Source: Botrimarina mediterranea (GTDB taxonomy: Bacteria; Planctomycetota; Planctomycetia; Pirellulales; Lacipirellulaceae). Taken from it: a stretch of DNA of 64,000 nucleotides. The DNA is taken from contig NZ_CP036349.1 of NCBI RefSeq assembly GCF_007753265.1, positions 2,265,363 to 2,329,362 on the forward strand, in the 5' to 3' direction. The position numbers and the translations under genes were made by a program. Positions 6,313-60,471 of this stretch are shown one piece after another. Position 1 is the stretch's first letter. Each line of letters starts with the position of its first letter. The notes beneath the pieces are model-generated. The model was not told the origin of the DNA. It did not search any database and saw only the letters and a program-made list of their open reading frames with translations.

Positions 6313-6326
6313 CCTCGCCTCGGCAT

Positions 6327-33382: not shown

Positions 33383-33399
33383 TAGTTACACGCCTTCGT

Positions 33400-33436: not shown

Positions 33437-33658
33437 GCTGCAGGCTGTGGAGTTAAGTGACTCTGCGAGCATAAGGCGTCCGGATGTGATTTGGACGCGA
33501 CTCTTTGGGTAGACCTAGCTCGTGAAACTACCCATACACGGCGGTATGCTGAGCCCAGCAAAGGCTGTGCATATCACGCCATAGTTCCGAGCAATGCTCT
33601 TATTCAAGAAGCTGGTGGCGGCACCACTCAGCTCCACTTTAAATCCATTCTTTTTAAG

Positions 33659-35220: not shown

Positions 35221-35414
35221 GCCTGCTGTAGATGCCCGTTGCATCGGGCAGGTCCCTGAGGCAAAGCGTCATGGTGTTGCTACTGCTGTAGTCTCATTTG
35301 TAGGGAAAGCATCTCTGGCGGAGCCTCATTGTCGCGTGCGATCGCTTTCCTCTCCTGCACACATTCAGTCCGCACTGTTATATCTCGCCTAATACCAATT
35401 GCATCGGATATGTC

Positions 35415-36317: not shown

Positions 36318-36559
36318 CGAAGGCGAGAGTGTCGTCAACCGTGGTGTTCATCAGGATTGTCCGCTGATGTCCTATGCAACATTGGTGGCATCGAAGAACG
36401 ACCGATGAGCAAAGGCTGAATGTTGCTGCAAAGCGTCACTATCAGTGGAGGCGATTGTCACGTAGTTGGGCGTGTCCTGTCAGCAGCGTAAGGCAGTGAA
36501 GAGGGGGGCTGGGATGAAGTCTCTCCTTTGGACTACGGCTTGGCAGGCCGCACCGCGTC

Positions 36560-38867: not shown

Positions 38868-38931
38868 CGATCCGTCGTTCCGCAACCAGTCGGTCGCCGC
38901 TAGCCGCCACTCCACCGCCGCCTCTAAGACC

Positions 38932-39570
38932 ATGACAGAAGAATTGCCGCCCTTCCGCGAGTGGAGCATCGCAGCGGTGCGGCTCCTGAAGGGGGCCGTC
39001 GAGTTCGACGACCCTGCTACTTGGCAGCTAGTCCTCGGCGCCCGCTCGACGCTTCAGGAGTACTTCGCCCGAATCGGGCTGCGGCTAGTGGTTGACGAGA
39101 CCGACGGCGTGGCGTATCTGCGACAGCTTGAGGAGGACGAGCTAGCCGAGGGTTACGAGCGGCTGCCGAAGCTGATGCACGCGGCGCCTCTTAGCTATGG
39201 GGCGACACTTCTGTGCGTGCTGTTACGCGACTCTCTGCGGCGGTACGAGGAAGAGGACCTGAGGAACGAGCGGTGCGTGATCACCGACGAGGAACTGCAC
39301 GAGGAGTGGGTGGCGTTTTTCCCGCCGGCGAGCGACGAAAAGAAACAACGGCGGTACTACGACCGCGCCGTGAAGGCGATCCGTGACGCGGGGTTCGTCA
39401 AACCGCTGGAGGCCGACGGAATGGACGGGCCGAGCTGGCTGGTCAGCCGGGCGCTGCGCCAGCGGCTGCGGGCAGAGGAACTCGAGACGCTGCGGGATCG
39501 GCTCTCCGAATTCGCCGAGGTCCAGGACGAGGCGTCGCAGTCGACAGGGTCTGGCGAGGAGCGGGCATGA
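38932..39570 (+). CDS. jetB: Wadjet subunit JetB (DUF4194, MukE-like)
   Basis: The 212-aa product begins MTEELPPFREWSIAAVRLLKGAVEFDD. It has winged-helix-like content and the segment MHAAPLSYGATLLCVLLRDSLRRYEEEDLRNERCVITDEELHEEW, which is typical of DUF4194. JetB corresponds to the KITE protein of the complex and modulates loop extrusion. Its stop overlaps the jetC start (ATGA), indicating translational coupling. Confidence 0.88.
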   Translation: MTEELPPFREWSIAAVRLLKGAVEFDDPATWQLVLGARSTLQEYFARIGLRLVVDETDGVAYLRQLEEDELAEGYERLPKLMHAAPLSYGATLLCVLLRDSLRRYEEEDLRNERCVITDEELHEEWVAFFPPASDEKKQRRYYDRAVKAIRDAGFVKPLEADGMDGPSWLVSRALRQRLRAEELETLRDRLSEFAEVQDEASQSTGSGEERA

Positions 39571-42500: not shown

Positions 42501-42962
42501 ATGTCATTCGCCGCCCGCGAGCTGGACGACGCCACCGGCGAAGAACGGGCCTACTACGAGGGCAGCTCCGGCAAGTCGGGCGGCGAAAAGGCGAAGTTGG
42601 CGTTTACGGTGCTGGCGGCGGCGATTTCTTACCAGTTCGACATCGAGCCAGATCGCCCCGTGAGCGACCGGTTTCATTTTTTGGTTGTCGACGAGATGTT
42701 CAAGAACGTCGACGATCAGAACGCCGAATACGCCCTGAACCTGTTCGAGGAGTTCGGACTACAGCTGCTGATTGCGGCGCCGCTGGACGCAAAGGCCCGC
42801 GTCACCGAGCCATACGTCGGGTGCTACCTGCTGGTGAGCAAGGACGAGGCGACGGAAAAATCGGAGGTCTTCCACGTCACCGCCCGAGAACTCCAGGACG
42901 TGGTCCTTGCACAGAAGGGCGGCAACGGTTCATGGGCAGCTAGGCCACCCGCGCCGAAGTGA
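39567..42962 (+). CDS. jetC: Wadjet subunit JetC (MukB/SMC-like ATPase)
   Basis: A 1131-aa SMC-like ATPase. Walker A is GKNGHGKS at 49-56; two long coiled-coil arms with Glu/Arg/Ala heptads span roughly 270-480 and 620-900 around a hinge; the signature SGKSGGEKAKLAF is near 1000 and Walker B FHFLVVDEMF near 1038. It dimerises and powers loop extrusion on circular DNA. Length matches type I JetC. It is 6 bases upstream of jetD. No catalytic residue appears missing. Confidence 0.92.
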   Translation: MNGYLPLERSPRPGYRLQRVELFNWGSFDSTGGEVHELRPEGRSALMVGKNGHGKSTVVDALLTLLVRPGVRNYNVAAGAKKRERDERSYVTGAYDLQSREGESAETRRLRPGAGGFSILLATFANEDVAEAFTVAQVLYLKADQSAERVYCFAEGERSVRADFADLPATDRLVAELKRRGMQATRSHPEYEKWLAAKTRWRPKAMDVFNQTVAVRDIENLNDFIRKHMLDGRSWNDRVERLLAHTAQLSEAHQTLVRARRQSELLGPVVEAAKKHQKLSDKLAAADARLAAADVFFRRQTLELVGPRVEELSREIEGLDSRKDQLGRRRRELEEQCRKLRNEIDRAGGERLRELPGLVAIQEELARVKRTANERYAASLRRAGVEGRATDSETFIALRERLSRLATETRREVAVAEGRQADLLVERARVHEGLDRDRGELESLRKRKGNMPRRLVELRERMCRNLRIATSELPFVAELIAVSPEHRDWEASIEKALRGFAHSMLAPGDHYALVSRYVEATRLEDGVGAGQRLTYLRVPLFTHVPPAGRGRSDSLVTKLRFREGRPLSEWVRAELAERHDYRCCETVEEFQETRGPAMTRQRHLKSGGGRHEKDDRSEAVDPRRFVLGWDNKEKIDRLTQAVAEAERRLATVDAQLHEVDEGLRVSRGRLAAADMALDVKAFDEVDCFLHERQAETLRREKRQLEEADDTVSQLKRSLSAVEQAVVAVEAQRDACTSRRALAEKERDDAVSLVEIARSALEQQSNEATREEVLDAIAAELVDPPLTADNLFVREQSYLKRLRHGRADLEGRARPAGERLVRVMGDYLSEFPEEKADLSCSVEYRDEFLARRQRIEEEDLPRHERRFKERLNEKVTQDIGLLRSEFENERRGIKGRVEELNRSLGKLPYREGTHMRLEASDTQNAEIAQFRAELRGCLDDALDDSFEAAEARFLRIRKLLDRLRDETAWRDRVTDVRKWMSFAARELDDATGEERAYYEGSSGKSGGEKAKLAFTVLAAAISYQFDIEPDRPVSDRFHFLVVDEMFKNVDDQNAEYALNLFEEFGLQLLIAAPLDAKARVTEPYVGCYLLVSKDEATEKSEVFHVTARELQDVVLAQKGGNGSWAARPPAPK

Positions 42963-42968
42963 CGGGCG

Positions 42969-44171
42969 ATGATCTCACCCGAAGAAATACTCCGCAAGGC
43001 AAGCCGCAAGTATCCGGACGTGCTGCGGGACTATGTGGACTGTGGCGACGCCCCTTCATTGCTATTCCCCCTTAGGATGCCCTGCGACCTGAGGCTGTCG
43101 GAAGATCTGGCGACACAGATCGCCGAGGTCGACCGATTGCGAAGCGGCGCAAAGGAGCGGCGCGGCTTCGGCTACTCCGTTGGCTGGCGTCGCGTCAACT
43201 CTCCAATGCGTGGCAAAAACCACATTCCTGCTCGTGTAGAGTTCGAGACTCGCAGCGACCTGCTCCGCTTGATCGGCAAGCAACGAGAATTCGCCCGGTT
43301 CGCCACCGGGGTCGATTCGCTCCGCTTGAAGTTGCCCGAGGTCTTGCCTTGGGTGCGCCATCGCGCGCAGACCTATCTGAAGGTGTGCGAAGAGACTGCG
43401 GGGCTTATCGAAGTCGTGAGCTACCTACGCGAACACCCTCGCCCGGATCGATTCGCACGCGAGTTGCCCCTATCCGTTGACACGAAGTTCATTGAACGCA
43501 ACCAGCCGACGCTCCGTCGGTGGCTGGACCTCTGCTTACCTCCCGAAGCGGTGGACGAGACAGAAGAGGACTTCGCGTTGCGTTTTGGGCTCCGCCGCAA
43601 AGGGACGCTTGTGCTGGTGCGGATGCTGGATGACGCCTTGGTGGCGGAGGCAGGTCTGCCGTGCCGCGAGCTTGCGCTACCGCTCTCGGCAGTAGAGTCG
43701 CTGCAGGTCCGGCCTCGCTGCGTGGTGATTGTCGAAAACGAAGTAAGCCTGTTGACGCTGCCGCCGTGCCCTGGCGTGATGGCGCTGGGAGGTTTGGGAC
43801 ACGCCGTCACGATCCTCAAGGCCGTCCGATGGCTGAACGATGTGTCGCTTATCTACTGGGGCGACATCGACCCGCCTGGCTTCGTGATGCTGTCGAATCT
43901 CCGCCGCTCGTTTCCGCACGTAAGGAGCTTGTTGATGGACGCTTCAACCCTCGATGAGTGGGGGCAAGCCCTGTCCGAGCCGAAGCCTTTTGCAGCAAAC
44001 TCGATCATCTCTAACCTATACCAGGAAGAACTCGCTACACACGACCGCTGCGTGGCGGAAGCGTTTTGGATTGAACAGGAACGTTTCCCATCGCCGGAGG
44101 TCGCCCGCGCCGTGGCGGCAATGGTGGAAGAGATTGGCGAGCCTCGTGGTTCGCAGGGAGGTTGTCAGTAG
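42969..44171 (+). CDS. jetD: Wadjet nuclease subunit JetD (DUF3322/DUF2220)
   Basis: The 400-aa product has an N-terminal DUF3322-type region and a C-terminal Toprim-like DUF2220 domain. The metal-binding residues are visible as VVIVENEVSLL (Glu near 256) and YWGDIDPPGF (Asp-x-Asp near 299-301). JetD is the topoisomerase VI-like endonuclease that cleaves plasmids after JetABC extrusion stalls. With intact active-site motifs in JetC and JetD, the system looks functional. IS remnants start 69 bases after its stop. Confidence 0.9.
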   Translation: MISPEEILRKASRKYPDVLRDYVDCGDAPSLLFPLRMPCDLRLSEDLATQIAEVDRLRSGAKERRGFGYSVGWRRVNSPMRGKNHIPARVEFETRSDLLRLIGKQREFARFATGVDSLRLKLPEVLPWVRHRAQTYLKVCEETAGLIEVVSYLREHPRPDRFARELPLSVDTKFIERNQPTLRRWLDLCLPPEAVDETEEDFALRFGLRRKGTLVLVRMLDDALVAEAGLPCRELALPLSAVESLQVRPRCVVIVENEVSLLTLPPCPGVMALGGLGHAVTILKAVRWLNDVSLIYWGDIDPPGFVMLSNLRRSFPHVRSLLMDASTLDEWGQALSEPKPFAANSIISNLYQEELATHDRCVAEAFWIEQERFPSPEVARAVAAMVEEIGEPRGSQGGCQ

Positions 44172-44492: not shown

Positions 44493-45560
44493 TCAGGCCG
44501 CTATGCGTTCGTAGTGCTTGAGCACGCCGCCAAGCCACTCGCGGCAGACGACCTCTTCGCCACTCTCTGGTGGGTCATCAACTTCAGGCCAGACCCCGGT
44601 CGGCGGCTTGTTCTCCAGGCGTTGGTGTGGGCGACATGCGTGATAGTAGTCCAAGTAGGAAGCAACCAAGTGGTCGAGATGGCCGAGACCGAAGGCGATG
44701 AACCGGTTGAGGCACTCCCCGCGGATCGAGCCGATCCAACGCTCGACGAACGCGTTCTGGTTAGGCGCCCGCGGCGCCGTCGGCTCAACCGAGACGCCCG
44801 CCTCGGCGAAGATCTGGTCGAAGCGGTTTGAATACTTGAAGTCGAGGTCGCGGACCAAGTACCGAACGGGCAACTCCTTTGACCGGGCTTGCTGCAGCAT
44901 CGACTCGGCCTGAGTGGTGACCCACGCGTCGTCCGGCTTGAATGTCGCCGGCGAGCAGATCACCTGCCGCGAGTTGACGTGCAGGAACGCCAGCACATAG
45001 GCCTGCCGGAGGCCGGTGCTCGTCATCACCATCTTGCTAAAAAAATCACATTGCCAGAGTGACTCGGCGTGGATTTTGATGAAGTCGTCCCAGGTCCCCG
45101 GGCCCCGCTTCGGGCCCGGGTGGATGCCCTCTTCTTTGAGGATCGTTCGCACCGTCGTACGGCCAACGCAGCGGATCCGCAGCTTCCGTAGCTCGCCGAC
45201 GATCCGGCCGTAGCCCCACTGATTCTCGCGGGCGAGCCGGACGACGATCTGCCGGATCGTCTCGGAGGTTCCTTTGCGGCCCATTTTTTTCGCGGGCGGC
45301 TTCCCCTGGCTTCTCCGCTCTAGCCAGCGGCGGTAGGTTCGCGGGTGAACAATCGATACCAGCTTCAGTACGTCCGAACCGATGCCGTCCCCCAGCTCCA
45401 GCAGCCGCTGCCGCTCGTCGTCCTTGAGGAAGATCCGGCTCTGCGGGACGCGGGCCCGCGTCATCTCCAGTTCTGCCTTCAGGAAGAGGATTTGCCGACG
45501 GAGCTGTTCTTCACTGGAGCGGGCGAAGAGGAAGAACAGCGGCGAAAACCACGGCGGCAT
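44493..45560 (-). mobile_element. IS transposase, DDE integrase-core (rve) type
   Basis: The 355-aa transposase begins MPPWFSPLFFLFARSSEEQLRRQILFLKAE and has a helix-turn-helix region, then an integrase core with catalytic residues in QCDFFSK (Asp), VRDLDFKYS (Asp) and NAFVERWIG (Glu). It is apparently intact. It resembles integrase-core transposases found in planctomycete genomes. I could not define terminal inverted repeats or a target duplication. Fragments of related copies lie at 36560 and 44241, so this element type has transposed repeatedly around the Wadjet operon. Confidence 0.82.
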
Positions 45561-48457: not shown

Positions 48458-49204
48458 CTAGATCGTCAGACTTGGGCCGATTGCTTCCAATCGCAAACAA
48501 CGGGATACGTGGTCGGGCATCGCGATCGCCAATAAACGCCAGAAGTCTCTGCCGTGCGAGGGGTGCCTCAAGTGGCAAAGTTCGTGGGCGACGACGTACT
48601 CGAAGAGCGGCTTGGGCGCCATCACGATTCGCCAATTGAATCGCAACCGTCCGTCGGCCGACGCGCTGCCCCAACGCGACTTCATTTCTCGCACCTGGAC
48701 CGAGACGGGAGTGACGCCGATCTGCTTGGCGTGCTTCTCGATGCAAGAATCGAGACGCGCCGTGCATCGCTCACGATACCAGGCTTCCAGCGCCTTGCGA
48801 ACGACGCCGGCGCGTTCTGATTTGCCAAGGCTCGAATTGACCTGCGCCAGAAACTTCCCTTGGTAGCAGAGAACGGAGACGGGGTCTGCCGTGGGGGTAA
48901 CCGTCACTTTCAACTGGTACTGCTTGCCGAGGTAAAGCAGTGTCTCGCCGCTCTGGAACTGCCGGCTGGCGTTTCGCTGGCAAGCACTGTTCCGCTCGCG
49001 TTGTTGGACTATCCACGCCGACTTGCCTCGCACCTTCTCAGCGATGCGAGTGCGACGCGTCCCCTTCGGTGCGGCAACAACCACGGACTGGTCCGGCCGG
49101 ACTGTGATGCCGATCGTCTTCCTGCGATTGGTTCGCTCGATGGCGTACTCAATCCGCGTCGTTCCGTACTGCACCCCATCCCGATCCGTCGGTTTTTGGC
49201 TCAT
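48458..49204 (-). CDS. YgjP/DUF45-type zinc metallopeptidase
   Basis: The 248-aa product has MKSRWGSASADGRLRFNWRIVMAP followed by VVAHELCHLRHPSHGRDFW, the HExxH zinc motif and downstream His of the YgjP-like (DUF45/WLM) peptidase family. It starts in the hsdR stop (ATGA), so it belongs to the restriction operon. Members of this family are often found beside type I restriction hsdR genes, where a regulatory or processing role has been supposed but is not established to my knowledge. Confidence 0.85.
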   Translation of the reverse strand: MSQKPTDRDGVQYGTTRIEYAIERTNRRKTIGITVRPDQSVVVAAPKGTRRTRIAEKVRGKSAWIVQQRERNSACQRNASRQFQSGETLLYLGKQYQLKVTVTPTADPVSVLCYQGKFLAQVNSSLGKSERAGVVRKALEAWYRERCTARLDSCIEKHAKQIGVTPVSVQVREMKSRWGSASADGRLRFNWRIVMAPKPLFEYVVAHELCHLRHPSHGRDFWRLLAIAMPDHVSRCLRLEAIGPSLTI

Positions 49205-52188
49205 CCCAGTCTCACCCTCGCGAGGTCCATGATGGCGGTCGTGGCGGTTTCAATTTGTTTCTCCGGGTAGTCCGCGAGTCGTAGTTGTCGTTTTACCTTG
49301 CGCCGCATCTCACGTTGCACGTCTTCTTTCTGGAACCAATCGAGCACCGCTTCTTGCTTGAGCGAATCGAAGACCGCTTCGGCCAATTCGGCTAGCTTTT
49401 CACTAGCGGTCTCGTCACCACTGCCCGCGTTCGCTTGGAGCAAGCCGAAGAATGGCGCCACCGCTTCGGAGATGCCTAACACGGCCGCGTCGTCAGGCCG
49501 GCCGCTTTTCAAATCGTCTCGCACCCGCATCAGAAGCGAAAACTCCTCAGCGTCGTCGATGCGTTGGTCGCGCCGCTCTTGGATAATCCGCTCTAGTCGT
49601 TCCTTGACCGACTCATAAAACACCGGGTCTTCGTGCAGCTTGACCGTGATCGTACGGTTGATGGCGTGTTCCATCCGGCTCGCCTTCGCACGCGGGTCCT
49701 TGAGCTTCTCGACCTCCTCAGAAAATCGTTCCGACATGATCGACACCGGCGCAACGAGCTGTCGGACCTCGTCGCCTTTCACGTGCCTATCGATCAAGGC
49801 TCGAACCTTAGCGCTGCAATCGGGAAGATCGGTGTCCTCTGTCTCGTAGAAGGCTCGTGCCTCACGGCGAACTTTACGCAACCAGGCGAAGTCAGGCAGG
49901 TACTTCAGCGCGCGCGGATCGGGCAGTAATTGCTCCAGCGCCTTGAAGAACGAGCGGTAGCGGGCCTGGAAAATGGCTCGAGTATCCTCCTTCTCCAATG
50001 CCAGTACCCACGGCTCGACACCCGAGCGGTCGAGCCCCTCAATGAACATGGCGAAGACATCGGCGTGACGCTGCTTGAGCGCCTGGCTGGCCGCCTCGTC
50101 GTCGCGGCGTTGCAGCACGTCATCGACCGCCACGTCTTGCGAAAAGACTTCAAGGGCTTTATCCAGGAAGCCCGAGACGCCCCAGTAATCGACGATCAGC
50201 CCCCACTGCTTGTCGCGCTCCGGCAAAGGTCGGTTGACCCGGGCGATAGCTTGAAGCAGGTTGTGGTCCGTAAGCCGCCGGTCGAGGTACAAAGCCCGCT
50301 CGATCGGGGCATCGAAGCCGGTGAGGTACTTGTTGTGGACCACCAGGATCGCCAGTCTATCGACCGGCTCCTCCTTGAATTGGCGGACGACCTCGGGCTC
50401 GTCATCGAACGGCTTTTTCAAAGTCCAAAGTTCGCTGTCTTTTGAGCCGGGATCGGAGATCAACAGCGCCACGCGGTCCGGGAAGTGCTTCGACAGCTCT
50501 TGGTAGTACAGGCCGGCGGCCTTCTGCGAGCACACCGCTACCTGCGCTTTGAAGCCGTCAGGTTCGAAGTTTGCCTTGTAGTGCTCGGCGATGTCGGCGG
50601 CGACCATCTCGACGCGGTCGAGCGACTCGGCGATACGTCGCTCGGTGACCTCGGTCGCTTTGAGCTTCTCGCGCTGTTCTTTTGTCAGGTCCGCGAACTC
50701 GGACTCGAACAGCGGGTCGATCCGCCGCCCCCAGACCGCCAGCTCCGGCAGCCGGCTCTCGTAGAGGATGGGCACGGTTGCGCCGTCGGCGACCGACTGC
50801 GGCATCGTGTACTTGTGGATGTAGTTGCCAAACGTCGCCTGCGTCTTATCGATCGGCGTGCCGGTGAAAGCCAGCCGGCAAGCGCCTGGCAATGCCCGTT
50901 GCAGATGAGCGGCGAACTGGCCGTACTCGCTTCGGTGCGCCTCGTCGATCAGCACGAACACGTTCTGGGCGTCCGACAGCACCGGATGCTTGCTGCCGCG
51001 TGACAGATCGACCTCGTCTCGGAACTTCTGGACGGTGGTCATCACCGTCTGACCCGGCGGGCCGCTGAGCAGTTTCCGTAGCGCCCGTACTCGCGACGCC
51101 CGGACCGGGTTCTCGAAGCCGCAGTTCTGGAAGGTCTGCGTGATCTGGCGGTCTAGGTCGGTCCGGTCGGTCACGACCAGCAACGTGGGATTGTTGAGCG
51201 ACTTCTGACGGCGCAGCTTCAGCCCCAGCCACATCATCGTCAGACTCTTGCCGCTCCCCTGGGTGTGCCAAATGACGCCACCGCGGTCTTTTAGCTCTAG
51301 CGGGCTGGTGGGGTCGATGATCTGCCCAACCGCTTTGTTAACGGCCACAAACTGCTGATAGCGGGCCAGCTTCTTAACGAGCTTCCCGCCGTCGCGGTCG
51401 TACGCCACGAAATTGCGCGTCAGGTCCAACAGATTCCGCTTCGACAGCATACCAGCAACAAGGACGTCTTGCTTCGTCGGCGTACGTCCTAGTCGCTGCT
51501 GCCAATCGTGTTCATCACCTGGATAGAACGTCTTCCACTCGGCGTAGCGATTGAGCATCGTGCCGATCGCTCCGTACTGGGCGCCATACTTCCGCATCGC
51601 GATGCAGAGCTGCACCGTGTGGAACAGCCGCACCACTCCCTTGTCGGGGTCTTGATACGCGAGCAGGTCGCTGACCCCTTTGGCGATGCCGTGGTCGTCG
51701 TCGGGCCGCTTGCACTCGATCGAGGCCAGCGGGATGCCGTTGACGTAGACCACCAGGTCGAGCCGCCGCGTGTACCGCGGTCCCTTTACCGATAGCTCTT
51801 CGACGACCAGGAAGTCGTTATTCTCGGGTTGGTCGTAGTCGACGTAGTAGACGCTCCGCCCGACCGGCTTGCCGCGAACGATCTCTTCGACCGTCACCCA
51901 CCTGCTCAGCAGCCGATGACAGGTTTCGCTGGCGTCGATCAGGTTCGCAGCTAGCGGCTGCCGCAGTGCGGCGACCGCTTGGCGGACGCCGTCGTCGGTC
52001 AGCCCCGGATTGATGTCGCGTAGCTTGCGCTCCAGTCGGCCCAGCAGCAGCACCTCGGTCTCGCTCTCCCGCTCGGCGGCGAAGACTGGGCTGCGACCAT
52101 CGGCGTACTCGTAGCCGAGGTGGTCGCGCAGCAGTTCCCAGGCGGGTTGCTGGACTTCGGAGTGTTCGGGGCCGCGACTGCTTGCCAT
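49201..52188 (-). CDS. hsdR: Type I restriction enzyme R subunit
   Basis: A 995-aa HsdR (ATG 52188; an in-frame GTG lies at 52191). The N-terminal endonuclease carries the D...ECK-type active site (RRLDLVVYVNGIPLASIECKRP). Motor motifs follow: Walker A HTQGSGKS near 309, DEAH box LIDEAHRSEYG near 410 and SF2 motif VI-like AIARVNRP. It translocates DNA and cuts unmethylated DNA when assembled with HsdM and HsdS. The gene directly abuts the CD-NTase stop codon, with no room for an independent promoter, so it is cotranscribed with the CBASS genes. Confidence 0.93.
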   Translation of the reverse strand: MASSRGPEHSEVQQPAWELLRDHLGYEYADGRSPVFAAERESETEVLLLGRLERKLRDINPGLTDDGVRQAVAALRQPLAANLIDASETCHRLLSRWVTVEEIVRGKPVGRSVYYVDYDQPENNDFLVVEELSVKGPRYTRRLDLVVYVNGIPLASIECKRPDDDHGIAKGVSDLLAYQDPDKGVVRLFHTVQLCIAMRKYGAQYGAIGTMLNRYAEWKTFYPGDEHDWQQRLGRTPTKQDVLVAGMLSKRNLLDLTRNFVAYDRDGGKLVKKLARYQQFVAVNKAVGQIIDPTSPLELKDRGGVIWHTQGSGKSLTMMWLGLKLRRQKSLNNPTLLVVTDRTDLDRQITQTFQNCGFENPVRASRVRALRKLLSGPPGQTVMTTVQKFRDEVDLSRGSKHPVLSDAQNVFVLIDEAHRSEYGQFAAHLQRALPGACRLAFTGTPIDKTQATFGNYIHKYTMPQSVADGATVPILYESRLPELAVWGRRIDPLFESEFADLTKEQREKLKATEVTERRIAESLDRVEMVAADIAEHYKANFEPDGFKAQVAVCSQKAAGLYYQELSKHFPDRVALLISDPGSKDSELWTLKKPFDDEPEVVRQFKEEPVDRLAILVVHNKYLTGFDAPIERALYLDRRLTDHNLLQAIARVNRPLPERDKQWGLIVDYWGVSGFLDKALEVFSQDVAVDDVLQRRDDEAASQALKQRHADVFAMFIEGLDRSGVEPWVLALEKEDTRAIFQARYRSFFKALEQLLPDPRALKYLPDFAWLRKVRREARAFYETEDTDLPDCSAKVRALIDRHVKGDEVRQLVAPVSIMSERFSEEVEKLKDPRAKASRMEHAINRTITVKLHEDPVFYESVKERLERIIQERRDQRIDDAEEFSLLMRVRDDLKSGRPDDAAVLGISEAVAPFFGLLQANAGSGDETASEKLAELAEAVFDSLKQEAVLDWFQKEDVQREMRRKVKRQLRLADYPEKQIETATTAIMDLARVRLG

Positions 52189-52191
52189 CAC

Positions 52192-53706
52192 TTACGCCTC
52201 AACTCGAACATACTTACGCCCAGTGCGTGCGACACAGTAGCCGCCTTTTACAAGAAAGGCTTCGACCCAGTGGGCGCCAGCATATGCCGTGTGCTCCCAT
52301 CGGACCCGATCGACAACATGGTCAGCCGGAATGATTTCTCCACGAAGCTCGCCGACGCGTTCCGCTTCGAGGCCCGTATTTACAACTTGCCAATGCAAGT
52401 CGAACGGGGCCGGAGCGTTCGTGGTCAGCTCGAAACGCAGATGAACGCCTTTGGGGACTTCGCGTTCAGTCAGGTCGTGCATTCGAGCACTGTTCTTGGA
52501 GCGATGCACCGTGGCCGATAGCGACGCGTGATATCGCCGGTCCATAGTCCAAGGTGGAAGAGTGCAATGGCGAGTGCTAATCTCGGAGACCGCAGTGGGC
52601 GCTCTGGCAGAGGCTGATGCGCCGGGATGCGATATACCGGCAGACCTCGCTGCGTTCGCCACTGCCCGCTTGCCGAAGGACTCACCGAGTATCTCAAGCA
52701 AGTCGTCGGCGTTCCCCGATTCTAGCGCGGCTGTCAGATCTTCCTCTACTTTTCGCAGCCAAGCACGACACTTGACCTCTCGCTCTGGGTGATCAGCCCA
52801 CTTATCGGCAAAATTCTCATCGTCATTGGTAGGATTCGGCACCCAAGCAACCCGTTTGACTCCCTCCATCCGATATTCGATGTGCTGACCCATCCCTCGG
52901 ACAATCGCCAGGAGTGATTCAATGAGGTCGCCTTGGTTGTTGTACGACTTTGCCGCTAGCGTAGTGATGATTACGGAAATCGGCTTGTCGTCGTAGTCGG
53001 TAGCGAAGTGGACGTCACGGTGACGCTTGAGGATCTGAATCGACCGCTGAAGCGGTGTCTTGACCTTGTACTCGGGCACATCTTCGGCCGACGCTTTGAG
53101 CATGCCTTGTGCAAGCGCGATCCGCCTCTCGCGGAACCGAACTGCCATCCGGCTCTTGAACCACTCGGCATAGCCGATTGGGTTGCTGTGTTGCCAATCA
53201 TGAAGTTTGCGATCGGAAATCAAGATTCTCGATTCGGCGTAATCCCTGAATCTTTGACGCCCGTCGTCATCCGGGATTGCAGGCAAGACGTCCATGTGAA
53301 AGCCATCGTCATAATCTAGGGTCCAGCAGCGACGCCCTTCTTTGAGCGTCGGAACATCGACGTGTGACTTCTCGCAGTCGGCGACGTAGAGCCGTAGGTG
53401 CTTCTGAAGGTCGTCTTTCAGTTCTTGCTGAGAGATACCCGTCTTACGCAGGTCGCGTTCGTAGACCAAGTCGATGTCGTAGCCGGATTCCCTTGAGCAG
53501 GGCCTTACAACAGTTCCAAGACGAAACGACCCCTGCGGGTAAATTGTCGGCTCACGACGTCCGTCGGATTCGTCCTGTTCCTCCAGCCAGTGGCCGATGT
53601 GCTCGTACTTCTCGACGGCCTCTTGATGGACGGCATCGGGGATGTCCAAGGAAGCAGCGACGGCCTCAAGCAACTCGGCGAGCTGGCGTTGTTGAGTGGT
53701 AATCAT
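52192..53706 (-). CDS. CD-NTase with C-terminal AGS-C sensor domain (CBASS)
   Basis: ATG 53706 after GGAGG; 504 aa. The nucleotidyltransferase core shows GSFRLGT (from residue 59), DID at 77-79 and the third Asp at 139 (FHMDV), all catalytic residues present. The helical core continues to about 330. After a Ser/Ala linker, a C-terminal domain at about 395-504 (LRFELTTNAPAPFDLHWQVVNTG, GAHWVEAFLVKGGYCVARTGRKYVRV) matches the AGS-C sensor domain (PF18134) found in such enzymes. It should make a cyclic oligonucleotide on phage sensing and activate the neighbouring phospholipase. It lies between capV and hsdR. Confidence 0.88.
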   Translation of the reverse strand: MITTQQRQLAELLEAVAASLDIPDAVHQEAVEKYEHIGHWLEEQDESDGRREPTIYPQGSFRLGTVVRPCSRESGYDIDLVYERDLRKTGISQQELKDDLQKHLRLYVADCEKSHVDVPTLKEGRRCWTLDYDDGFHMDVLPAIPDDDGRQRFRDYAESRILISDRKLHDWQHSNPIGYAEWFKSRMAVRFRERRIALAQGMLKASAEDVPEYKVKTPLQRSIQILKRHRDVHFATDYDDKPISVIITTLAAKSYNNQGDLIESLLAIVRGMGQHIEYRMEGVKRVAWVPNPTNDDENFADKWADHPEREVKCRAWLRKVEEDLTAALESGNADDLLEILGESFGKRAVANAARSAGISHPGASASARAPTAVSEISTRHCTLPPWTMDRRYHASLSATVHRSKNSARMHDLTEREVPKGVHLRFELTTNAPAPFDLHWQVVNTGLEAERVGELRGEIIPADHVVDRVRWEHTAYAGAHWVEAFLVKGGYCVARTGRKYVRVEA

Positions 53707-53726
53707 TGGAACCTCCGTGTGATCGG

Positions 53727-54725
53727 CTAAATGGAATAGTCAGGAACGGGGTAGCTCGGGTAATACGGCTTCGCGATGTGAGGCCGAAAGACCTCGTTGA
53801 ACCTTGGGCAGAAGTGCAGGCTCTCTCTTGCTGCAATTGCTAGATGCTCATCGGTGTTGCACTTGTCCAATGCAAAGACGCCCATCGGCACGCGTGGGTC
53901 TAATCGGTGGACGCGATCACGCCCGAGCAGAAGCTCGACCATATTGTTTGTACCGACGCTTTGACCTCGCATCGCCACGTTCACGCCCGCAGTACGCCAG
54001 GCAATAAGGCCGCCTGAATCTAGGCGATCCGGGTGCCTCGTAACGTCATCACAAGTTCCGATGCTCAAGATTCGGATTGCGTCCCACGGCACATTCAGCG
54101 TCGAGGTGGCTTCAACCAGTCCGACAAGCGTCGGGTTGTTCGCCCAAACTCCGCCATCTACAAGTCGCGTCTTTTCAATGCCTTTCCACGCGGGGAAATA
54201 AGTGGGCGCCGCAGTTGTTGCCATCGCCACCTTCCAAGCTGGGAATTGCCAGTCACGGCGTAGCCTCGAATGATGCGGGGTTCGGAAAACACGCACTTGA
54301 TCGTGGCCAAGGTCGTATGACGGAATAACGAGCCGCTTGGTGCTCTCGCCGAAAAGACGTTCGCCAATGGCAGTACGCAGAGCGCTCTCCAAGGGCTTAC
54401 TGTCGTAACGATGTCGCCAGAGCGTTCGGTAAAGAAAACGGAGCCATCGTCGCAGACAAATGCCGCTCGATGGAAAAATTGCCGGCCCGTGACCGGTGTA
54501 GAAGTCAACCAATGCTTTGGGGCGCATCCCAAGGCCTAGGCCAATCGCGATTATCCCTCCGGTGGATGTACCAGTGATCAGATCGAAGTGGTCGGTAATC
54601 TGAATCTGCAAGTCTTGTTCGAGGTGAGCGAGCACGGCAGCAGCAAAGAGACCACGAATGCCCCCGCCATCCAGTGACAGGATTCGGAAATCTCCTTCCC
54701 ACGGTGGCACTTGCTCGTCAGGCAC
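53727..54725 (-). CDS. capV: Patatin-like phospholipase effector (CapV-type)
   Basis: GTG start at 54725 overlapping the hsdS stop by 8 bases; 332 aa. The patatin motifs are complete: oxyanion loop DGGGIRG (19-25), nucleophile elbow GTSTGG (Ser54) and catalytic DGG (Asp190). CapV enzymes are activated by a cyclic dinucleotide and degrade the cell's own phospholipids, killing infected cells. With the adjacent CD-NTase it forms a minimal two-gene (type I) CBASS with no ancillary genes visible. Confidence 0.9.
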   Translation of the reverse strand: MPDEQVPPWEGDFRILSLDGGGIRGLFAAAVLAHLEQDLQIQITDHFDLITGTSTGGIIAIGLGLGMRPKALVDFYTGHGPAIFPSSGICLRRWLRFLYRTLWRHRYDSKPLESALRTAIGERLFGESTKRLVIPSYDLGHDQVRVFRTPHHSRLRRDWQFPAWKVAMATTAAPTYFPAWKGIEKTRLVDGGVWANNPTLVGLVEATSTLNVPWDAIRILSIGTCDDVTRHPDRLDSGGLIAWRTAGVNVAMRGQSVGTNNMVELLLGRDRVHRLDPRVPMGVFALDKCNTDEHLAIAARESLHFCPRFNEVFRPHIAKPYYPSYPVPDYSI

Positions 54726-55944
54726 TGGCCACCTCCACGGTCGGGACGCGCACTTGCCCGGTCAGAAGCGCCTGGCTCAGAGCTGACTTCGCTTCGGTAA
54801 GCTGAGTCAACTCATCGCTCTGGCTTGCAATCCTGTAGTCAAGTGTCGCTAACAGTTCCACGATGCGAGCTTGGTCATCGACTGAACGTGGAATGCTGAC
54901 CTTGATCGGAGCAAATTGCTCGAAGTAGAGACGTAGCCGATCTTCCGTCAGTCCTTGCGAGAACAGATGGAACCGGCGGATCGTTGCCGGCAGCTTGAAC
55001 AGGTGTGCCGCGTAGTCGGATCGGAGGCCGCCAGTTGGCTCGACAACGACATAGGCCGGGCTGACTAGGCAATCGAACTCGGCGAGCCCGAACACGCCTT
55101 GCCACATTCGCATCATGTTGTAGGCGATGTCGCCGCTGCGAACGAGCAAGTGCTGGTCGTCGCGGAGGTTGGTCTCCATCCGGCGTTCGATCTCTTCGCG
55201 GTTGACGAGTCCGTTGTGCATCGTCACGGCGACGCGTGGCAGGGCGTCGACACCAGATTCCTTGCGTGGCTGAAATACGTCACCAAGACGAACCTCAACA
55301 AACTCCGTATGCCGCCCAGGTAGACCATCGGTAAGCAGGTTCTGCACCAGGGCCTCCTTCAACTTGCGTGTCTGCTCGATCACATTTTCGGTCAGCTCAA
55401 TCGCGTCATCCACTGCCCCAAGAGCACCGGCAATCAATTTCTGCTCAGGAACTGGCGGAAGCCAAACTTCTGCGGAACGAACGACATCAAGCCCGAGGCC
55501 ATAGCGAGTCACCCCGGCAGCTTTCTTGATGAACTGAGCCCGAAACTCCGGAATTCGGAGTTGGGCGGCCAAAAAAGGTCCGTAGGCCAACTCAGGCGAA
55601 GGACGGAGCAGTCCAAGGTGATACCCAAGGACAACGCCGGCAGCGTCTTGACGAACAACGGACGGTTCTGCGATCTCGTCTTTGGTTTCCGAGTCCTTCG
55701 TAATGAGAACGTCATCCGCCTGAAGCGTGAAACGCTCAATCTCTTCTTCCGTGGCTGTGGCTTCCATGAACGGAAGGCCGTTGTGGATGTACGCGTTCTT
55801 CCATACATCCATATAATTGCACAGGCGTACTGGCGTCTCGTCCGACTTCGTATGCTTGTCGATGCTGCTAAATCGGACGTCGGCGACGTCGCCTAGAGCT
55901 TGCACACGCCACCCTTCAGGCGGGTAGCCATTGCTAGACAACAT
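54718..55944 (-). CDS. hsdS: Type I restriction specificity subunit
   Basis: The start is ATG 55944, inside the end of hsdM (overlap of 11 bases); 408 aa. Two target-recognition domains are visible, each followed by a conserved helical segment: PEQKLIAGALGAVDDAIELTENVIEQTRKLKEALVQNLLTDG in the middle and DDQARIVELLATLDYRIASQSDELTQLTEAKSALSQALLTGQVRV at the C-terminus. This bipartite plan is standard for HsdS. The recognition sequence cannot be read from the protein. Confidence 0.92.
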   Translation of the reverse strand: MLSSNGYPPEGWRVQALGDVADVRFSSIDKHTKSDETPVRLCNYMDVWKNAYIHNGLPFMEATATEEEIERFTLQADDVLITKDSETKDEIAEPSVVRQDAAGVVLGYHLGLLRPSPELAYGPFLAAQLRIPEFRAQFIKKAAGVTRYGLGLDVVRSAEVWLPPVPEQKLIAGALGAVDDAIELTENVIEQTRKLKEALVQNLLTDGLPGRHTEFVEVRLGDVFQPRKESGVDALPRVAVTMHNGLVNREEIERRMETNLRDDQHLLVRSGDIAYNMMRMWQGVFGLAEFDCLVSPAYVVVEPTGGLRSDYAAHLFKLPATIRRFHLFSQGLTEDRLRLYFEQFAPIKVSIPRSVDDQARIVELLATLDYRIASQSDELTQLTEAKSALSQALLTGQVRVPTVEVASA

Positions 55945-57820
55945 ACCCCACCTCCTCAAGCAACCGGTTCATCCGCTGCTCGGCTTCGTTGCGGAGCTGC
56001 TCTAGCTCGCGGAGCTTCACCAGCTCGGCCTGCACGTCGAGCCGCGGCGGTGGCTCCGACGAATCGACGTAGCGGCTGATGTTGAGGTTGTAGTCGTTCT
56101 CTTCGGCGATCTCGGCGAGCGTGGCGACCGTAGCAAACTTCTTCAGCGGCATCCGCTGCATCGCGGGCCCCTCAGTCCCCTCCCGTGTCAGTCCTCCGAG
56201 CCAGTAGCCGACTTGGCGGCGAGCCTCATCCAGCTCGGTGCGTCCACGGGTCGCCTCGTCCCGGATGCGGTCGGCGATCTCTTCCGGCTGACCTTCGGCC
56301 GCGGCGAGCTGGCGAGCCTCGTGAGCGTCGATCGCCGCGAGCCAGCTGTCGGCGGTCGCGTCGGCGGCGCTGGCGACCGATTCTTCTGCGAGCCCGTCCG
56401 CATTCCAGGAATTGAACACGGCCGTGATCCGCAGCAGGTCTTCCTGCCGCAGGTAGTTGCGGTTCTTCCCCTCGTGGTACAGCCCGTCGGGCGACGCGTC
56501 GATAAACAGCACCTTGCCCTGGCGTTCTTTGGGCTTGTTCTTGTTGAGGATCAGCACCGAAGCGGGGATGCCAGTACCGAAGAAGAGTTTCTCGGGCAGG
56601 CCGATGACGGCCTCGAAGAGGTCTTCTTCTAGCAGGGCTTTCCGCACCTTGGCCTCCGACCCACCGCGGAACAGCACGCCGTGCGGCATGACGACGCCGA
56701 CCATGCCATGGTCGCCGGCGACCTCGACCATGTGTTGAAGGAAGGCGGTATCCCCCTTAGTCGTTGGGGGGACGCCCCGGGTAAAGCGGTGGAACGGGTC
56801 GGCCTTGAACTTCTCTTGGACCTCTTTGCTGTCGACCTTGCCAGGCTTGCCGTCTTTGCCTTCCTTGGGCGTGACGCCGTGCCACTCTTTGAGGGAGAAC
56901 GGCGGATTGGCGATGACGCGGTCGAATACGTCGAGCACGCCGGCGGTCTCGAACCGGGGGCGGCCGATGGTGTCGCCGGCGCGGATGTCGGTGTCGGGAA
57001 AGTTGTGCAGCAGCATGTTGAGCTTGGCAATGCTCCACGTGCCGTAGTTCTTCTCCTGGCCTGTCAAGGTAATGTTGCGTGGGTCGCCGCCGTGATCGAC
57101 GACGTAGTGGCCGCACTCGATGAGCATGCCGCCGGACCCGCAAGTCGGGTCGTGGATACGCATCCCCTCGGCCGGCTTGAGCAGCTGAACGATCAGCCGC
57201 ACGACCATCCGCGGTGTGTAGAACTCGCCCCCTTTCTTGCCCGAGCCTTCGGCGAATCGCTCGATGAGGTACTCGTAGGCGTTGCCCAGCACGTCGGGCT
57301 CGGCCAGGTTGCGTGAGCCGAGCGGGATCGACCCGAAGTGGGTCAGCAGCCGCTGCATCATGGCGTCCATTGTCTGGACATCGCCGAAACGGCGCTCGTC
57401 GTTGAACCGCACACCTGCGAGCACCCCTTCGAGGTACTGGGCGTTATGCTCCTCGATGGCGTGCAGCGCCTTGTCGATCGCTTCGGCTCGGTTCTCGCCG
57501 ACCGCCATCAGGTCGTCCCAGCGGGCGCCCTCGGGCAGGTAGTAGCTACCCGAAGTGTACTCGTCAGGGTCTTCGGCGATCTTTTCGGCTTCTTCGCGGG
57601 TTTTGCCGGCGCGGACCCACTCGTCGATGATGTCGCCGCGGCGTTCCTTGAAGACGTCGGATAGACGCTTAAGGAACATCAGGGCGAGGATGTGGTTTTT
57701 GAAGTCACCAGCATCGACGGTGCCTCGCAAGATGTCGGCAGCGCCCCACAGCAGGCGGTTCAGTTCGTCACGCGTGACGATGCGATGGCCGGGCGCGGCT
57801 TTGGTTTTGGGTTCGGGCAT
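55934..57820 (-). CDS. hsdM: Type I restriction N6-adenine methyltransferase subunit
   Basis: A 628-aa HsdM. An N-terminal helical domain (LLWGAADILRGTVDAGDFKNHILALMFLKRLSDVF) precedes the methyltransferase fold with motif I DPTCGSGGM near 225 and motif IV NPPF near 304. The C-terminal region is helical. It methylates host sites to prevent cleavage. It overlaps hsdS and follows the hydrolase gene after 21 bases, so all are likely one transcript. It is longer than the classical enzyme of about 500 aa, as in many environmental systems. Confidence 0.93.
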   Translation of the reverse strand: MPEPKTKAAPGHRIVTRDELNRLLWGAADILRGTVDAGDFKNHILALMFLKRLSDVFKERRGDIIDEWVRAGKTREEAEKIAEDPDEYTSGSYYLPEGARWDDLMAVGENRAEAIDKALHAIEEHNAQYLEGVLAGVRFNDERRFGDVQTMDAMMQRLLTHFGSIPLGSRNLAEPDVLGNAYEYLIERFAEGSGKKGGEFYTPRMVVRLIVQLLKPAEGMRIHDPTCGSGGMLIECGHYVVDHGGDPRNITLTGQEKNYGTWSIAKLNMLLHNFPDTDIRAGDTIGRPRFETAGVLDVFDRVIANPPFSLKEWHGVTPKEGKDGKPGKVDSKEVQEKFKADPFHRFTRGVPPTTKGDTAFLQHMVEVAGDHGMVGVVMPHGVLFRGGSEAKVRKALLEEDLFEAVIGLPEKLFFGTGIPASVLILNKNKPKERQGKVLFIDASPDGLYHEGKNRNYLRQEDLLRITAVFNSWNADGLAEESVASAADATADSWLAAIDAHEARQLAAAEGQPEEIADRIRDEATRGRTELDEARRQVGYWLGGLTREGTEGPAMQRMPLKKFATVATLAEIAEENDYNLNISRYVDSSEPPPRLDVQAELVKLRELEQLRNEAEQRMNRLLEEVGYVV

Positions 57821-57841
57821 GCGGTTTATTGTTCCGGCGGC

Positions 57842-58696
57842 TCAGGTGAGCGAGCGGTTGATGTGGTGGGCGAGGATATCGCGATTGACGCGGAGGTTAT
57901 CAGCTTGAAAGTAAGAGCTGTGTGCGCAGGCTGGGTTGCGAGCGATTGGCTTGCCGAACAGGCGCCGTATCCGCCAAGTCGAGCATCCCGTTGGGACAAG
58001 GTCGAGGTGTTGCTCGACTCCCGCAAACGGTGGTGAGATTGTACCTCCGACAACGTCGCCACCGGCGTCGATGTTGACGATCTGCACGACATGCGCTGGC
58101 AGTCGGCCATCGTTGACCCGGCCAAAGAGGTTCCGTTGCACGGTGCCGATCGACAACGCGCCGCCGAGGGTAAAGAGGTTCGCCACGCGGCCGGTGTAGG
58201 ACTGGTCATCGAGCCGGCGAAGTCCCTCGTAGCTGACCACCGTCCCCCAGCTGTGGGCGATGATGTGCAGCGTGTGACCGTCGGCCAGGAGTGGACGGAC
58301 AACTTCGTCGAAACGTGCAAGGATAGCTTCGCGCGTTGATTCCCAAGCCATGTAGCGGACAAAGTCGTCCATCGCCAAGCCGCTGCCGCCATACATGGCC
58401 GGCGCGTTGGGGGGCCCCGAAGAAGCCAGTGCCCGGACCTGTCCGTTGCGTGCTTTCCGACGATTCAGTTCTTGTTCGAGTTCTTCGCGTAGCCGCTGTT
58501 CTTCTGCCGCCGCTGCGTCGGCTTCGGGGCCAGCATCCCCGTAGGTCATCGCTGCGTTGACGAGATTGCTCCAGAGCACCTCTTGCTTGAGAAGTGGCCG
58601 CGATAGATGCGACCGGAGTGACTCGAACCATGCATCCGAGTATCCATCGTCATGGTCGCTAATGCCGTGAACGTAAACGATTGTGTGCTCAGCCAT
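57842..58696 (-). CDS. Alpha/beta hydrolase in the restriction-CBASS gene string
   Basis: The start is ATG 58696 (MAEHTIVYVHGISDHDD), preceded by AAGGAATC. The 284-aa protein has the early VYVHGI oxyanion segment and a nucleophile elbow IIAHSWGTVVSYEGL near residues 145-160 with Ser as likely nucleophile. It resembles esterase/lipase-type alpha/beta hydrolases; a lipid or ester substrate is plausible. It lies 21 bases upstream of hsdM and 13 bases downstream of an HsdS-like gene. Alpha/beta hydrolases are not standard members of type I restriction operons. Confidence 0.75.
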   Translation of the reverse strand: MAEHTIVYVHGISDHDDGYSDAWFESLRSHLSRPLLKQEVLWSNLVNAAMTYGDAGPEADAAAAEEQRLREELEQELNRRKARNGQVRALASSGPPNAPAMYGGSGLAMDDFVRYMAWESTREAILARFDEVVRPLLADGHTLHIIAHSWGTVVSYEGLRRLDDQSYTGRVANLFTLGGALSIGTVQRNLFGRVNDGRLPAHVVQIVNIDAGGDVVGGTISPPFAGVEQHLDLVPTGCSTWRIRRLFGKPIARNPACAHSSYFQADNLRVNRDILAHHINRSLT

Positions 58697-58709
58697 CGGT
58701 GATTCCTTC

Positions 58710-59309
58710 CTAGCGGAGCTTGTTGGAGACGAGTTGAGCGACAACCTGCCGCCGCGACTCGGCAACGGCTAGTGCGGTGTGGTACGCGGCGTCGGAAGCC
58801 GCCAGCAACTCGACGAGTTCTTCTTGCTCAGCGGGCGACGGAACGGGCACTTCTAGCTTGGCTAGGGCGGACGCGGTCAGGTTCATCTGCACGCTGCCCG
58901 ACTGACAGGTCGCTTCTAGGGCCGCTTGCCCCTCGCTGCTGAGCAGATAGGCCGCGAGAACGGCGGGCGCCAATCGAGGCCGCGAACGGACCCCCAGCAG
59001 GGTCGAGGCGATAACCGCCCCGTCGAGTTCCGGAGGCACGATTGCGACCTTCAAAGACGTGCTGCGAGCGGACAGCAACAGGTCGCCGGCGAGGACCTGG
59101 TATCGGGGCGTCGCCTGCACAGAGAGTTCGGCTGGCAGTGATAGCGACGCTTCGACGCCGCCGCCCTCAATCGATCCGACAGTCAGGACTGGGATGCCCC
59201 TTCCGATGACGACAAGCAGGTCCGACTTCACCGGCATTCCGGAGAAGATCTTCGCGATTTCAGCGAGTTGGCGGCGAGAGACGATCAAGGCAAGTACAGC
59301 CCGAGGCAT
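58710..59309 (-). CDS. HsdS-like single target-recognition domain protein
   Basis: The 199-aa product has IPVLTVGSIEGGGVEASL, VLAGDLLLSARSTSLKVAIVPPELDGAVIASTLLGVR and a C-terminal LEVPVPSPAEQEELVELLAASDAAYHTALAVAESRRQVVAQLVSNKL, which is the target-recognition plus helical spacer organisation of half an HsdS. Its length fits one TRD instead of the two in the downstream HsdS. It is the first gene of the string. It could alter specificity by pairing with HsdM, or belong to a separate function with the hydrolase. Confidence 0.75.
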   Translation of the reverse strand: MPRAVLALIVSRRQLAEIAKIFSGMPVKSDLLVVIGRGIPVLTVGSIEGGGVEASLSLPAELSVQATPRYQVLAGDLLLSARSTSLKVAIVPPELDGAVIASTLLGVRSRPRLAPAVLAAYLLSSEGQAALEATCQSGSVQMNLTASALAKLEVPVPSPAEQEELVELLAASDAAYHTALAVAESRRQVVAQLVSNKLR

Positions 59310-59433: not shown

Positions 59434-60471
59434 TCAGATCGAAATCCGCTCGACAATATTGCGCGTCACACACCGGCCGCGGCGGTCGTAGAGCCGAGTG
59501 GTTCGCGGGTCGGCGTGCCCGGCGAGATTCTGCACGTCTTCGAGTGGGACGCCTTGGCTCAGCAGGTCGGTAATCGTTGCCACGCGGAACGAGTGAGCGG
59601 TCAGTCGCCGAGGCAGTCCGGCGTCCTTCAGGCGTCGCCGCACCATGCGACTGACATCGTCTGCTGACATCGGTCGGTCGCTTAATCTGCCGGTACGTCG
59701 AATCGCCGAGGTGAACAAGGGCGAACCGCTACCCGGTGGCCCGCCAAGATTCCCTGCCGAATGCCGGGCTTCGATAAGGCCGGACAGCAATCTCTGCAGA
59801 TCGTGGCGAACAGGGATTTCACGTACCTTCCCTCCTTTCTCCGAGAAACTAAGACAGAACTGATCCCCCATCTCGCAGAAGTCATCGATGCGTAACCGAG
59901 CTACTGCGCCGACGCGAGCGGCCGTGTAGATCAACACGGCGATGGCCGCCCTGTCACGCAGCCCAATGAGCCGGCGATCGTCGATACTCGCTAGCAGTTG
60001 ACGAGCCTGAGCAACCGTTATCTCGGGCGTGCGACCCTCGACCACGCTGTGCCGGTCGCCCCGGACCGACGCGGCCGGATTGAGCGCGACTGCGTGCCGC
60101 TGTACGAGTCGGTCGAACAGGTGACGGATGGCGGCGAGGTAGACCTTCTTGGAAGCAGCCGATCCAGTCAGCCCGTCGAGGTAGTGACCGACGTCGGCGG
60201 GAGTGATTCGGTGGAGTGGTTTTCGCGTTGCATCCGCCCATGTCAGGAAACGCCTTGACGCACGCTCGTAGCTGCGGCGTGTGTGCGGGTTCCGCACCGC
60301 GGCGTACAGAAACTCTTCCCAGGCGAACACTGCTGCGGCGCCAGCCGCGGCAATCAGCGGGGGCGCGTCATCGACGAATCGACTCGTCGTCCTCTCCGCA
60401 GCCGCGATCGGCAAGTTCTTCGGGGGGCTCTCGTCTCTCACTCTTCTCCAAGTTGGGCGGCAGCCACTCAT
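59434..60471 (-). CDS. Tyrosine recombinase/integrase
   Basis: The 345-aa integrase contains an N-terminal SAM-like core-binding domain (FEWEEFLY-like helices to about 130) and a catalytic domain with Arg186 (ARVGAV), a Lys in EKGGK (212-215), His293-x-x-Arg296 (HSFR), His319 and Tyr328. All catalytic residues are present, so it should be active. It lies just upstream of the defence string on the same strand and may have mobilised it. No attachment site pair was identified. The first 30 residues may be dispensable; the exact start is uncertain. Confidence 0.9.
   Translation of the reverse strand: MSGCRPTWRRVRDESPPKNLPIAAAERTTSRFVDDAPPLIAAAGAAAVFAWEEFLYAAVRNPHTRRSYERASRRFLTWADATRKPLHRITPADVGHYLDGLTGSAASKKVYLAAIRHLFDRLVQRHAVALNPAASVRGDRHSVVEGRTPEITVAQARQLLASIDDRRLIGLRDRAAIAVLIYTAARVGAVARLRIDDFCEMGDQFCLSFSEKGGKVREIPVRHDLQRLLSGLIEARHSAGNLGGPPGSGSPLFTSAIRRTGRLSDRPMSADDVSRMVRRRLKDAGLPRRLTAHSFRVATITDLLSQGVPLEDVQNLAGHADPRTTRLYDRRGRCVTRNIVERISI

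Follow-up and report, generated by a model that had tools for sequence, protein, structure and literature searches.

A second defense system inside type I restriction-modification (R-M) operons is said to be a general pattern, reportedly laid out in a 2024 preprint by Payne et al. Embedding of such a system between hsdS and hsdR is already published, according to the portions of the papers available to us, for DarTG2 (PMC12255303) and TgvAB (PMC11411939, PMC12409362). The RRDM island of EPEC has the order rptR-hsdM-hsdS-darTG2-hsdR-M48 and, like the operon described below, combines in one island a second defense system exactly between hsdS and hsdR with a metallopeptidase gene downstream. Unlike that operon, its cargo is the DarTG2 toxin-antitoxin system and not CBASS, its first gene encodes the repressor RptR, and the accessible part of the report does not mention a half-HsdS (PMC12255303); judged by its gene labels, our operon starts with a half-HsdS instead of RptR and has a XerC/D-like recombinase upstream. 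In the type I operon of VPI-2 in V. cholerae, the two-gene defense TgvAB likewise lies between hsdS and hsdR, although it is a GmrSD-like type IV restriction system and not a signaling system. In the sections of those papers at hand, the two TgvAB genes by themselves gave 10- to 100-fold less protection than the complete cluster against several phages; context therefore mattered there (PMC11411939, PMC12409362).

PrrC, which stops translation, is a second-line cargo embedded, as here, in a type I locus, that of EcoprrI (PMC2610378, PMC12707154), and the embedding locus is described as type IC (PMC12707154); the available text of these reports has PrrC physically tied to the Hsd complex and silenced by it, unlike our module as it is known. 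A type I-B CBASS of S. schleiferi (CdnE03 plus Cap15) resembles ours in being flanked by type I R-M (PMC10686824, Extended Data Fig. 1 legend), and differs in CD-NTase clade and effector; the portion of the text at hand does not say exactly where it lies with respect to hsdS and hsdR. Type I R-M loci in Pseudomonas GI-Hotspot 7 also often hold a second defense system; that report, in its accessible part, names PrrC and PifA as cargo and does not name CBASS (PMC12629846). In the available portions of the literature matches listed, CBASS is not discussed as a cargo of the hsdS-hsdR position; the main embedding survey lay outside this coverage, and we claim no priority.

Here we analyze a stretch of 64,000 nucleotides (the window) from Botrimarina mediterranea (contig NZ_CP036349.1, positions 2,265,363 to 2,329,362), the genome of which is a single contig of 5.87 Mb, and in which a predicted type I CBASS lies in the hsdS-hsdR position. 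This CBASS is probably an autonomous system, co-expressed with its host operon and held there as an exchangeable cassette.

Gene content and junctions of the operon

Eight minus-strand open reading frames (ORFs) at 48458-59309 overlap one another or are spaced by no more than 21 nt, in the order half-HsdS, putative hydrolase, HsdM, HsdS, CapV, CD-NTase, HsdR and YgjP metallopeptidase. The initial annotation had described such a string, and both the ORFs and family searches bear it out. HsdM, HsdS, HsdR, CapV, CD-NTase and YgjP were matched in Pfam and, YgjP excepted, also in PADLOC and NCBIfam. The first gene (58710..59309, 199 aa), half the size of an hsdS, scored 20.9 bits against a Pfam cut-off of 22 and matched many PADLOC specificity models (best 2.5e-17). 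It is followed by an accessory gene (57842..58765; likely ATG start at 58696, read from the translation) that returned no family match in Pfam, PADLOC or NCBIfam and nothing in a motif search. Seven of the original gene labels were thereby supported, and the eighth, "alpha/beta hydrolase," which derives from an AHSWG stretch picked out by eye, is kept as putative.

The restriction genes are hsdM (55934..57820, 628 aa; HsdM_N plus N6_Mtase), hsdS (54718..55959; two Methylase_S stretches in Pfam), which probably starts at ATG 55944 instead of TTG 55959, and hsdR (49201..52191, 996 aa; TIGR00348, E = 2.9e-143). The last gene of the string (48458..49204; PF01863) encodes the YgjP-like metallopeptidase. 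In the five enzymes examined, the motifs that we take to be catalytic are intact: GS...DID and D139 in the CD-NTase, GGGIRG, GTSTG and DGG in CapV, DPTCGSGG and NPPF in HsdM, IECKR, GSGKS and DEAH in HsdR, and HELCH in YgjP. With HsdM, HsdS and HsdR all present and the motifs of HsdM and HsdR in place, the locus holds a complete type I restriction gene set, as originally proposed. A half-size HsdS-like gene also lies directly 5' of hsdM in L156, L170, L175, L176, L179, L183 and L184, and before hsdM in L014, L114, L115 and, among 20 additional Bacteroidota loci, in 11; L156 has no hydrolase gene at the place held by the window's hydrolase.

The CBASS cassette (52192..54725, minus strand) takes up the 2,526 nt separating hsdS from hsdR. 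Its capV gene (53727..54725, GTG start) encodes a patatin-like phospholipase effector that matched NF041079 (CBASS_lipase) at 275 bits against a cut-off of 200 and whose closest relatives of solved structure are patatins and cGAMP-activated phospholipases. The CD-NTase (52192..53706) matched the PADLOC Cyclase model PDLC00770 (E = 8e-154) and the Pfam families SMODS, DncV-like and AGS_C, the last of which is a C-terminal sensor domain at residues 379-502. Its GS...DxD...D active site is intact, with G59, S60, D77, D79 and D139 invariant across 20 sequences. The fold predicted by AlphaFold2 from a 20-row alignment (mean pLDDT 88, pTM 0.72) had CdnG of Serratia and Bradyrhizobium as its matches 1 to 6, and in sequence the best match among solved structures was 9woo, deposited as a cyclic GMP-AMP synthase, followed by 8hsb (SmCdnG) and 7ljn. 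With CdnG as its nearest solved homologues, the enzyme appears CdnG-like, an assignment made from fold and sequence matches. A Pfam scan of nine window proteins found none of the ancillary CBASS families E1/E2/JAB, HORMA and TRIP13. An intact CD-NTase active site, an adjacent CapV effector and the absence of ancillary genes make this a type I CBASS gene set, a call of the initial annotation that families, motifs and adjacency uphold.

The CBASS genes lie between hsd genes and on their strand, with gaps of -8 nt from hsdS to capV, whose GTG start is inside the hsdS stop region, 20 nt from capV to the CD-NTase gene, and 0 nt to hsdR, which begins right at the CD-NTase stop. The hsdM and hsdS genes overlap, as do hsdR and ygjP, by 4 nt. 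A GGAGG within the hsdS coding sequence (54732..54736, minus strand), 6 nt before the GTG, is the likely ribosome-binding site of capV; another GGAGG (53712..53716, minus strand), 5 nt before the ATG, likely serves the CD-NTase gene, and a GAGG ahead of hsdR sits in the final CD-NTase codons. A consensus promoter scan returned one site, on the plus strand only (shuffles mean 2.2), and a consensus terminator scan returned six terminator-like sites (shuffles mean 10.8), of which the two on the minus strand are within capV. The junctions look like those of coupled translation, and the overlaps and ribosome-binding sites point to probable transcription of the string as one unit from an upstream start, with coupled translation at the junctions. 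A long-shared history could alternatively have produced such seamless joins and the placing of ribosome-binding sites within adjacent genes, which counts against reading the CBASS as a cassette.

The window holds a larger defense island, since a Wadjet-like (Jet) set comprising a DUF3375 protein, an SbcC/RAD50-like ATPase and JetD lies at 37392-44171 on the plus strand. A transposase-like gene with rve domains (44493-45560, minus strand) is found on one side of the hsd-CBASS string, and a XerC/D-like tyrosine recombinase gene (59434-60471, minus strand) just upstream of the half-HsdS gene, with 124 nt between. The region at 30000-37000 is lower in GC (about 0.53-0.55) and contains bestrophin-like, PEMT-like and Asp/Arg hydroxylase genes. 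A repeat search within the operon found few short pairs.

Recurrence of nested CBASS and diversity of cargo

A scan of genome contigs from the CD-NTase side gave 21 loci. Phylum searches with the PADLOC family, centered on phyla picked from those loci and partly repeating them, were run at two thresholds. With E up to 1e-20, matches were obtained in 16 of 392 genomes of Planctomycetota; with the limit at 1e-60, they came from 11 of 398 Pseudomonadota genomes and 7 of 296 Bacteroidota genomes, and the phyla of a Myxococcales MAG and an Acidobacteria MAG contributed 4 of 140 and 2 of 149 genomes, respectively. Neighboring genes were labeled with profiles made for this analysis. A search with the Bacteroidota HsdR of L114, itself from a CBASS-bearing operon, matched 26 of 193 genomes; of the 27 places listed, 20 were opened, G399 and G914 had already been covered, and G842, G940, G893, G953 and the second place of G869 were left out.

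Counting the window, eight hsd operons bear CBASS, the other seven being in Planctomycetota, Gammaproteobacteria and Bacteroidota. The CD-NTase gene is between hsdS and hsdR in five of the eight (the window, L003, L014, L210 and L211), and the four cases outside the window represent three CD-NTase families with CapV or 2TM effectors. Nearest in layout is L003/L110 (Halieaceae), where PsyrTA precedes HsdS-CapV-CD-NTase-HsdR-YgjP; the 19.9 kb read there has no labeled hsdM, so the order of the window is matched only in part. L211 (Bacteroidota) reads HsdS-CapV-CD-NTase-E2-HsdR-YgjP, and L210 (Bacteroidota) has HsdS, an uncharacterized ORF, a CD-NTase, a 2TM effector, Fic and HsdR. These two are the only CBASS found between hsdS and hsdR in the 20 Bacteroidota loci opened in the HsdR-based sampling; a CD-NTase-like ORF upstream of the L222 operon, on the opposite strand, is outside this count. 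L014 (Bacteroidota) carries CD-NTases at two positions (halfS-HsdM-CD-NTase-HsdS-CapV-second CD-NTase-GGDEF-SoFic-HsdR-YgjP). The remaining operons are L002/L040 (HsdR-HsdM-Fic-HsdS-CapV-CD-NTase), L114 (halfS-HsdM-SAVED/HNH-CD-NTase-HsdS-SoFic-HsdR-YgjP) and L115, which resembles L114 with an added E2 gene, a Fic gene between E2 and HsdS, and uncharacterized ORFs before HsdR. The initial annotation had proposed looking for the same nesting elsewhere, and its discovery in four more operons argues that the nesting is more than chance; the occurrence of nested CBASS in other hsd operons rules out a unique accident in the window.

Most other CD-NTase loci have no hsd gene adjoining the cyclase gene. 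In L043 (on the other strand) and plasmid L059, hsd genes are near the CD-NTase gene and not around it, and a plasmid search found CBASS between hsd genes in 0 of 9 records opened out of 156 matching. The GGDEF-domain protein of L014 (10980-11741), beside the CapV/CD-NTase pair, could be part of a nucleotide-signaling defense. In L110, PsyrA (2-1542) is ahead of hsdS, and the small ORF preceding it may be PsyrT. On a Methylomagnum plasmid (L056, 7234-16428), capV and a CD-NTase gene directly follow a DNA methyltransferase gene, and farther upstream, on the same strand as the pair, there is a gene for a restriction endonuclease.

On a 65-row CD-NTase tree, 59 rows are outside any hsd operon, and the other six, which are nested (the window, L002, L003, L014, L114 and L115), need six changes, against a mean of 5.8 for shuffled labels; six is also the minimum forced by the well-supported branches. 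The tree was built quickly and some of its branches are long; counts of this kind do not separate gain from loss. Only cyclases inside an hsd operon were marked as nested, those with hsd genes merely nearby (L009, L011, L016, L043, L052 and L059) being treated as free, and L210 and L211, found later, are absent. Six changes for six rows leave no dedicated lineage apparent, and the idea of a CD-NTase lineage specific to hsd operons was discarded. The placements suggest that CBASS was taken into hsd operons several times, from different lineages.

The contents of the hsdS-hsdR slot were surveyed in Planctomycetota by way of HsdR, so that CBASS content did not steer the selection. HsdR matched in 67 of 294 genomes; 40 places were fetched, and a search within the taxonomic order added three. 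The counts rest on HsdR similarity and profiles made for this analysis. They exclude L198, which is without hsdS, L130, L180 and L193, which have no resolvable hsdS, and L200, from the order search, the contig of which starts within hsdS. In 24 of the 38 resolvable loci other than the window, hsdS and hsdR stand over 600 nt apart; for hsdM and hsdS, with the window counted, this holds in 10 of 35. None of the 38 has a CD-NTase gene in the slot by our profiles.

Of the 24 filled slots, 20 had one or more of their proteins scanned, often not every ORF; the contents of L163, L166 and L194 were assigned by other comparisons, and L161 was left out. PADLOC, applied to 14 slots, gave a defense-family match in 12, three of them weak; the remaining slots were scanned with Pfam only. 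The cargo comprises TIR/ThsB-like genes with a transposase (L156), GmrSD-like HEC-06/Orf5 (L159, L188), PDC-S11 (L160, L164), RhuM (L165) and two ORFs matching it (L166), SIR2-HerA (L167), a KAP NTPase (L171), a deaminase with a RecG-C-like domain (L177), PDC-S54 (L179), AbiJ, weakly matched (L181, L191), Schlafen/AlbA (L182, L189), Abi_2 (L183), a TIR with SLOG (L184) and, by a profile of our own, Fic (L163, L194). PDC-M02A/B fills the slot of the second hsd operon of the window genome (L174), and PARIS AriA/AriB that of a genome of the same family (L199). L168 and L187 gave no PADLOC match. PARIS is, to our knowledge, the sole named cargo family here known for sensing anti-restriction. On the HsdR tree, the distribution of filled and empty slots takes 12 changes, and shuffled labels take a mean of 12.0. 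This variety suggests that the hsdS-hsdR position is a swappable bay for many defense systems.

Differing cargo beside similar hsdM and hsdR

The full-length HsdR closest to that of the window belongs to L156. The two operons are 63% identical in HsdM, 62% in HsdR, 44% in half-HsdS, 43% in YgjP and 26% in HsdS, and their slot genes share no match. L165 and L167 are closer to each other (HsdM 93%, HsdR 88%, HsdS 49% over 156 aa), with RhuM in one slot and SIR2-HerA plus a third gene in the other. Their DNA similarity stops at the hsdM stop and restarts 24 nt into hsdR; between these points only short patches of 43-138 nt are alike, the 138-nt one being in hsdS, and an 87-nt piece (93%) follows hsdS in one locus and precedes hsdR in the other. 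L170, with an empty slot, and L184, with a filled one, are 83% alike in HsdR. The closest HsdR in the order search is encoded in L198, a same-order genome, by a 5'-truncated hsdR (3397-6347; 74% identical to the window's) accompanied by ygjP and without hsdM or hsdS, probably a decayed operon.

GC3 in the window is 0.59-0.65 for HsdS, CapV and the CD-NTase versus 0.84 for HsdM and 0.79 for HsdR. Across operons, GC3 was below the HsdM/HsdR mean for HsdS in 32 of 32 and for cargo in 19 of 23, and the deviations of HsdS and cargo were weakly correlated when flank GC3 was controlled (partial r of 0.37, one-sided permutation p of 0.043). The correlation no more than hints at joint movement of hsdS and cargo, and low GC3 may be intrinsic to HsdS. 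Base composition was considered as a sign that hsdS and CBASS had been imported together and found weak, with HsdS low in all 32 operons and r only 0.37.

A possible back-up defense from a probably exchangeable position

We favor a host operon with the layout halfS-hsdM-hsdS-cargo-hsdR-ygjP, the cargo position of which would have taken up capV and the CdnG-like CD-NTase gene. Restriction would act first, against unmodified phage DNA. Should a phage be modified or block restriction, the CD-NTase, independently triggered by an infection cue, would make a cyclic nucleotide, which would activate CapV and lead to degradation of the membrane, as in known CBASS; CBASS would thus act after restriction and at the cost of the cell. 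To judge from the comparisons between relatives, cargo, and perhaps hsdS too, may be replaced by recombination between conserved hsdM and hsdR. The initial annotation had seen in the operon a link between restriction and abortive infection, and a back-up role for CBASS when restriction fails is plausible by analogy with PrrC and PARIS.

Those same analogies might be taken further, to a dedicated guard in which the CBASS monitors the restriction complex and fires when an anti-restriction protein or DNA mimic disables HsdMSR. PrrC monitors EcoprrI in this way, being silenced by the type I enzyme to which it is linked and switched on by T4 Stp, in the available account (PMC2610378); PARIS, in the slot of a genome of the window's own family, is triggered by Ocr, and the coupling at both CBASS edges is tight. 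The accessible part of the PARIS report, however, has this system working without a type I system and guarding of EcoKI ruled out (PMC9122126). Most CD-NTases of the tree lie outside hsd operons, the nested ones do not group, and nested CBASS employs differing CD-NTase families and effectors, all of which makes a guard unlikely. Scattered nested CD-NTases and unrelated cargo in the slots of relatives are better fitted by exchangeable cargo than by a dedicated CBASS-restriction circuit. A bolder extension, which we hold to be equally doubtful, is that hsdS and the slot form a two-part exchange unit, specificity and back-up killer being replaced together between hsdM and hsdR as on a rotating platform, with the slot CBASS tuned to fire on failure of that restriction complex.

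Turnover at the slot looks high, with as many changes on the HsdR tree as in the shuffles, and this, together with the truncated hsdR remnant of L198 and the transposase and recombinase genes flanking the window operon, would also be expected had CBASS entered by chance or for expression only, with no gain from the pairing. Such neutral hitch-hiking is quite improbable, since the nesting recurs in three phyla, ribosome-binding sites are fitted into neighboring genes and catalytic motifs are intact, and defense families predominate in the slots scanned with PADLOC.

Exchangeable cargo, the reading we prefer, yields a testable rule: in such type I operons, the space separating hsdS from hsdR would be a bay for second-line defenses, CBASS included. 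It opens the direct question of whether restriction and signaling-based suicide cooperate from one operon, and it marks the hsdS-hsdR junction as one position at which unknown defense genes may be found.
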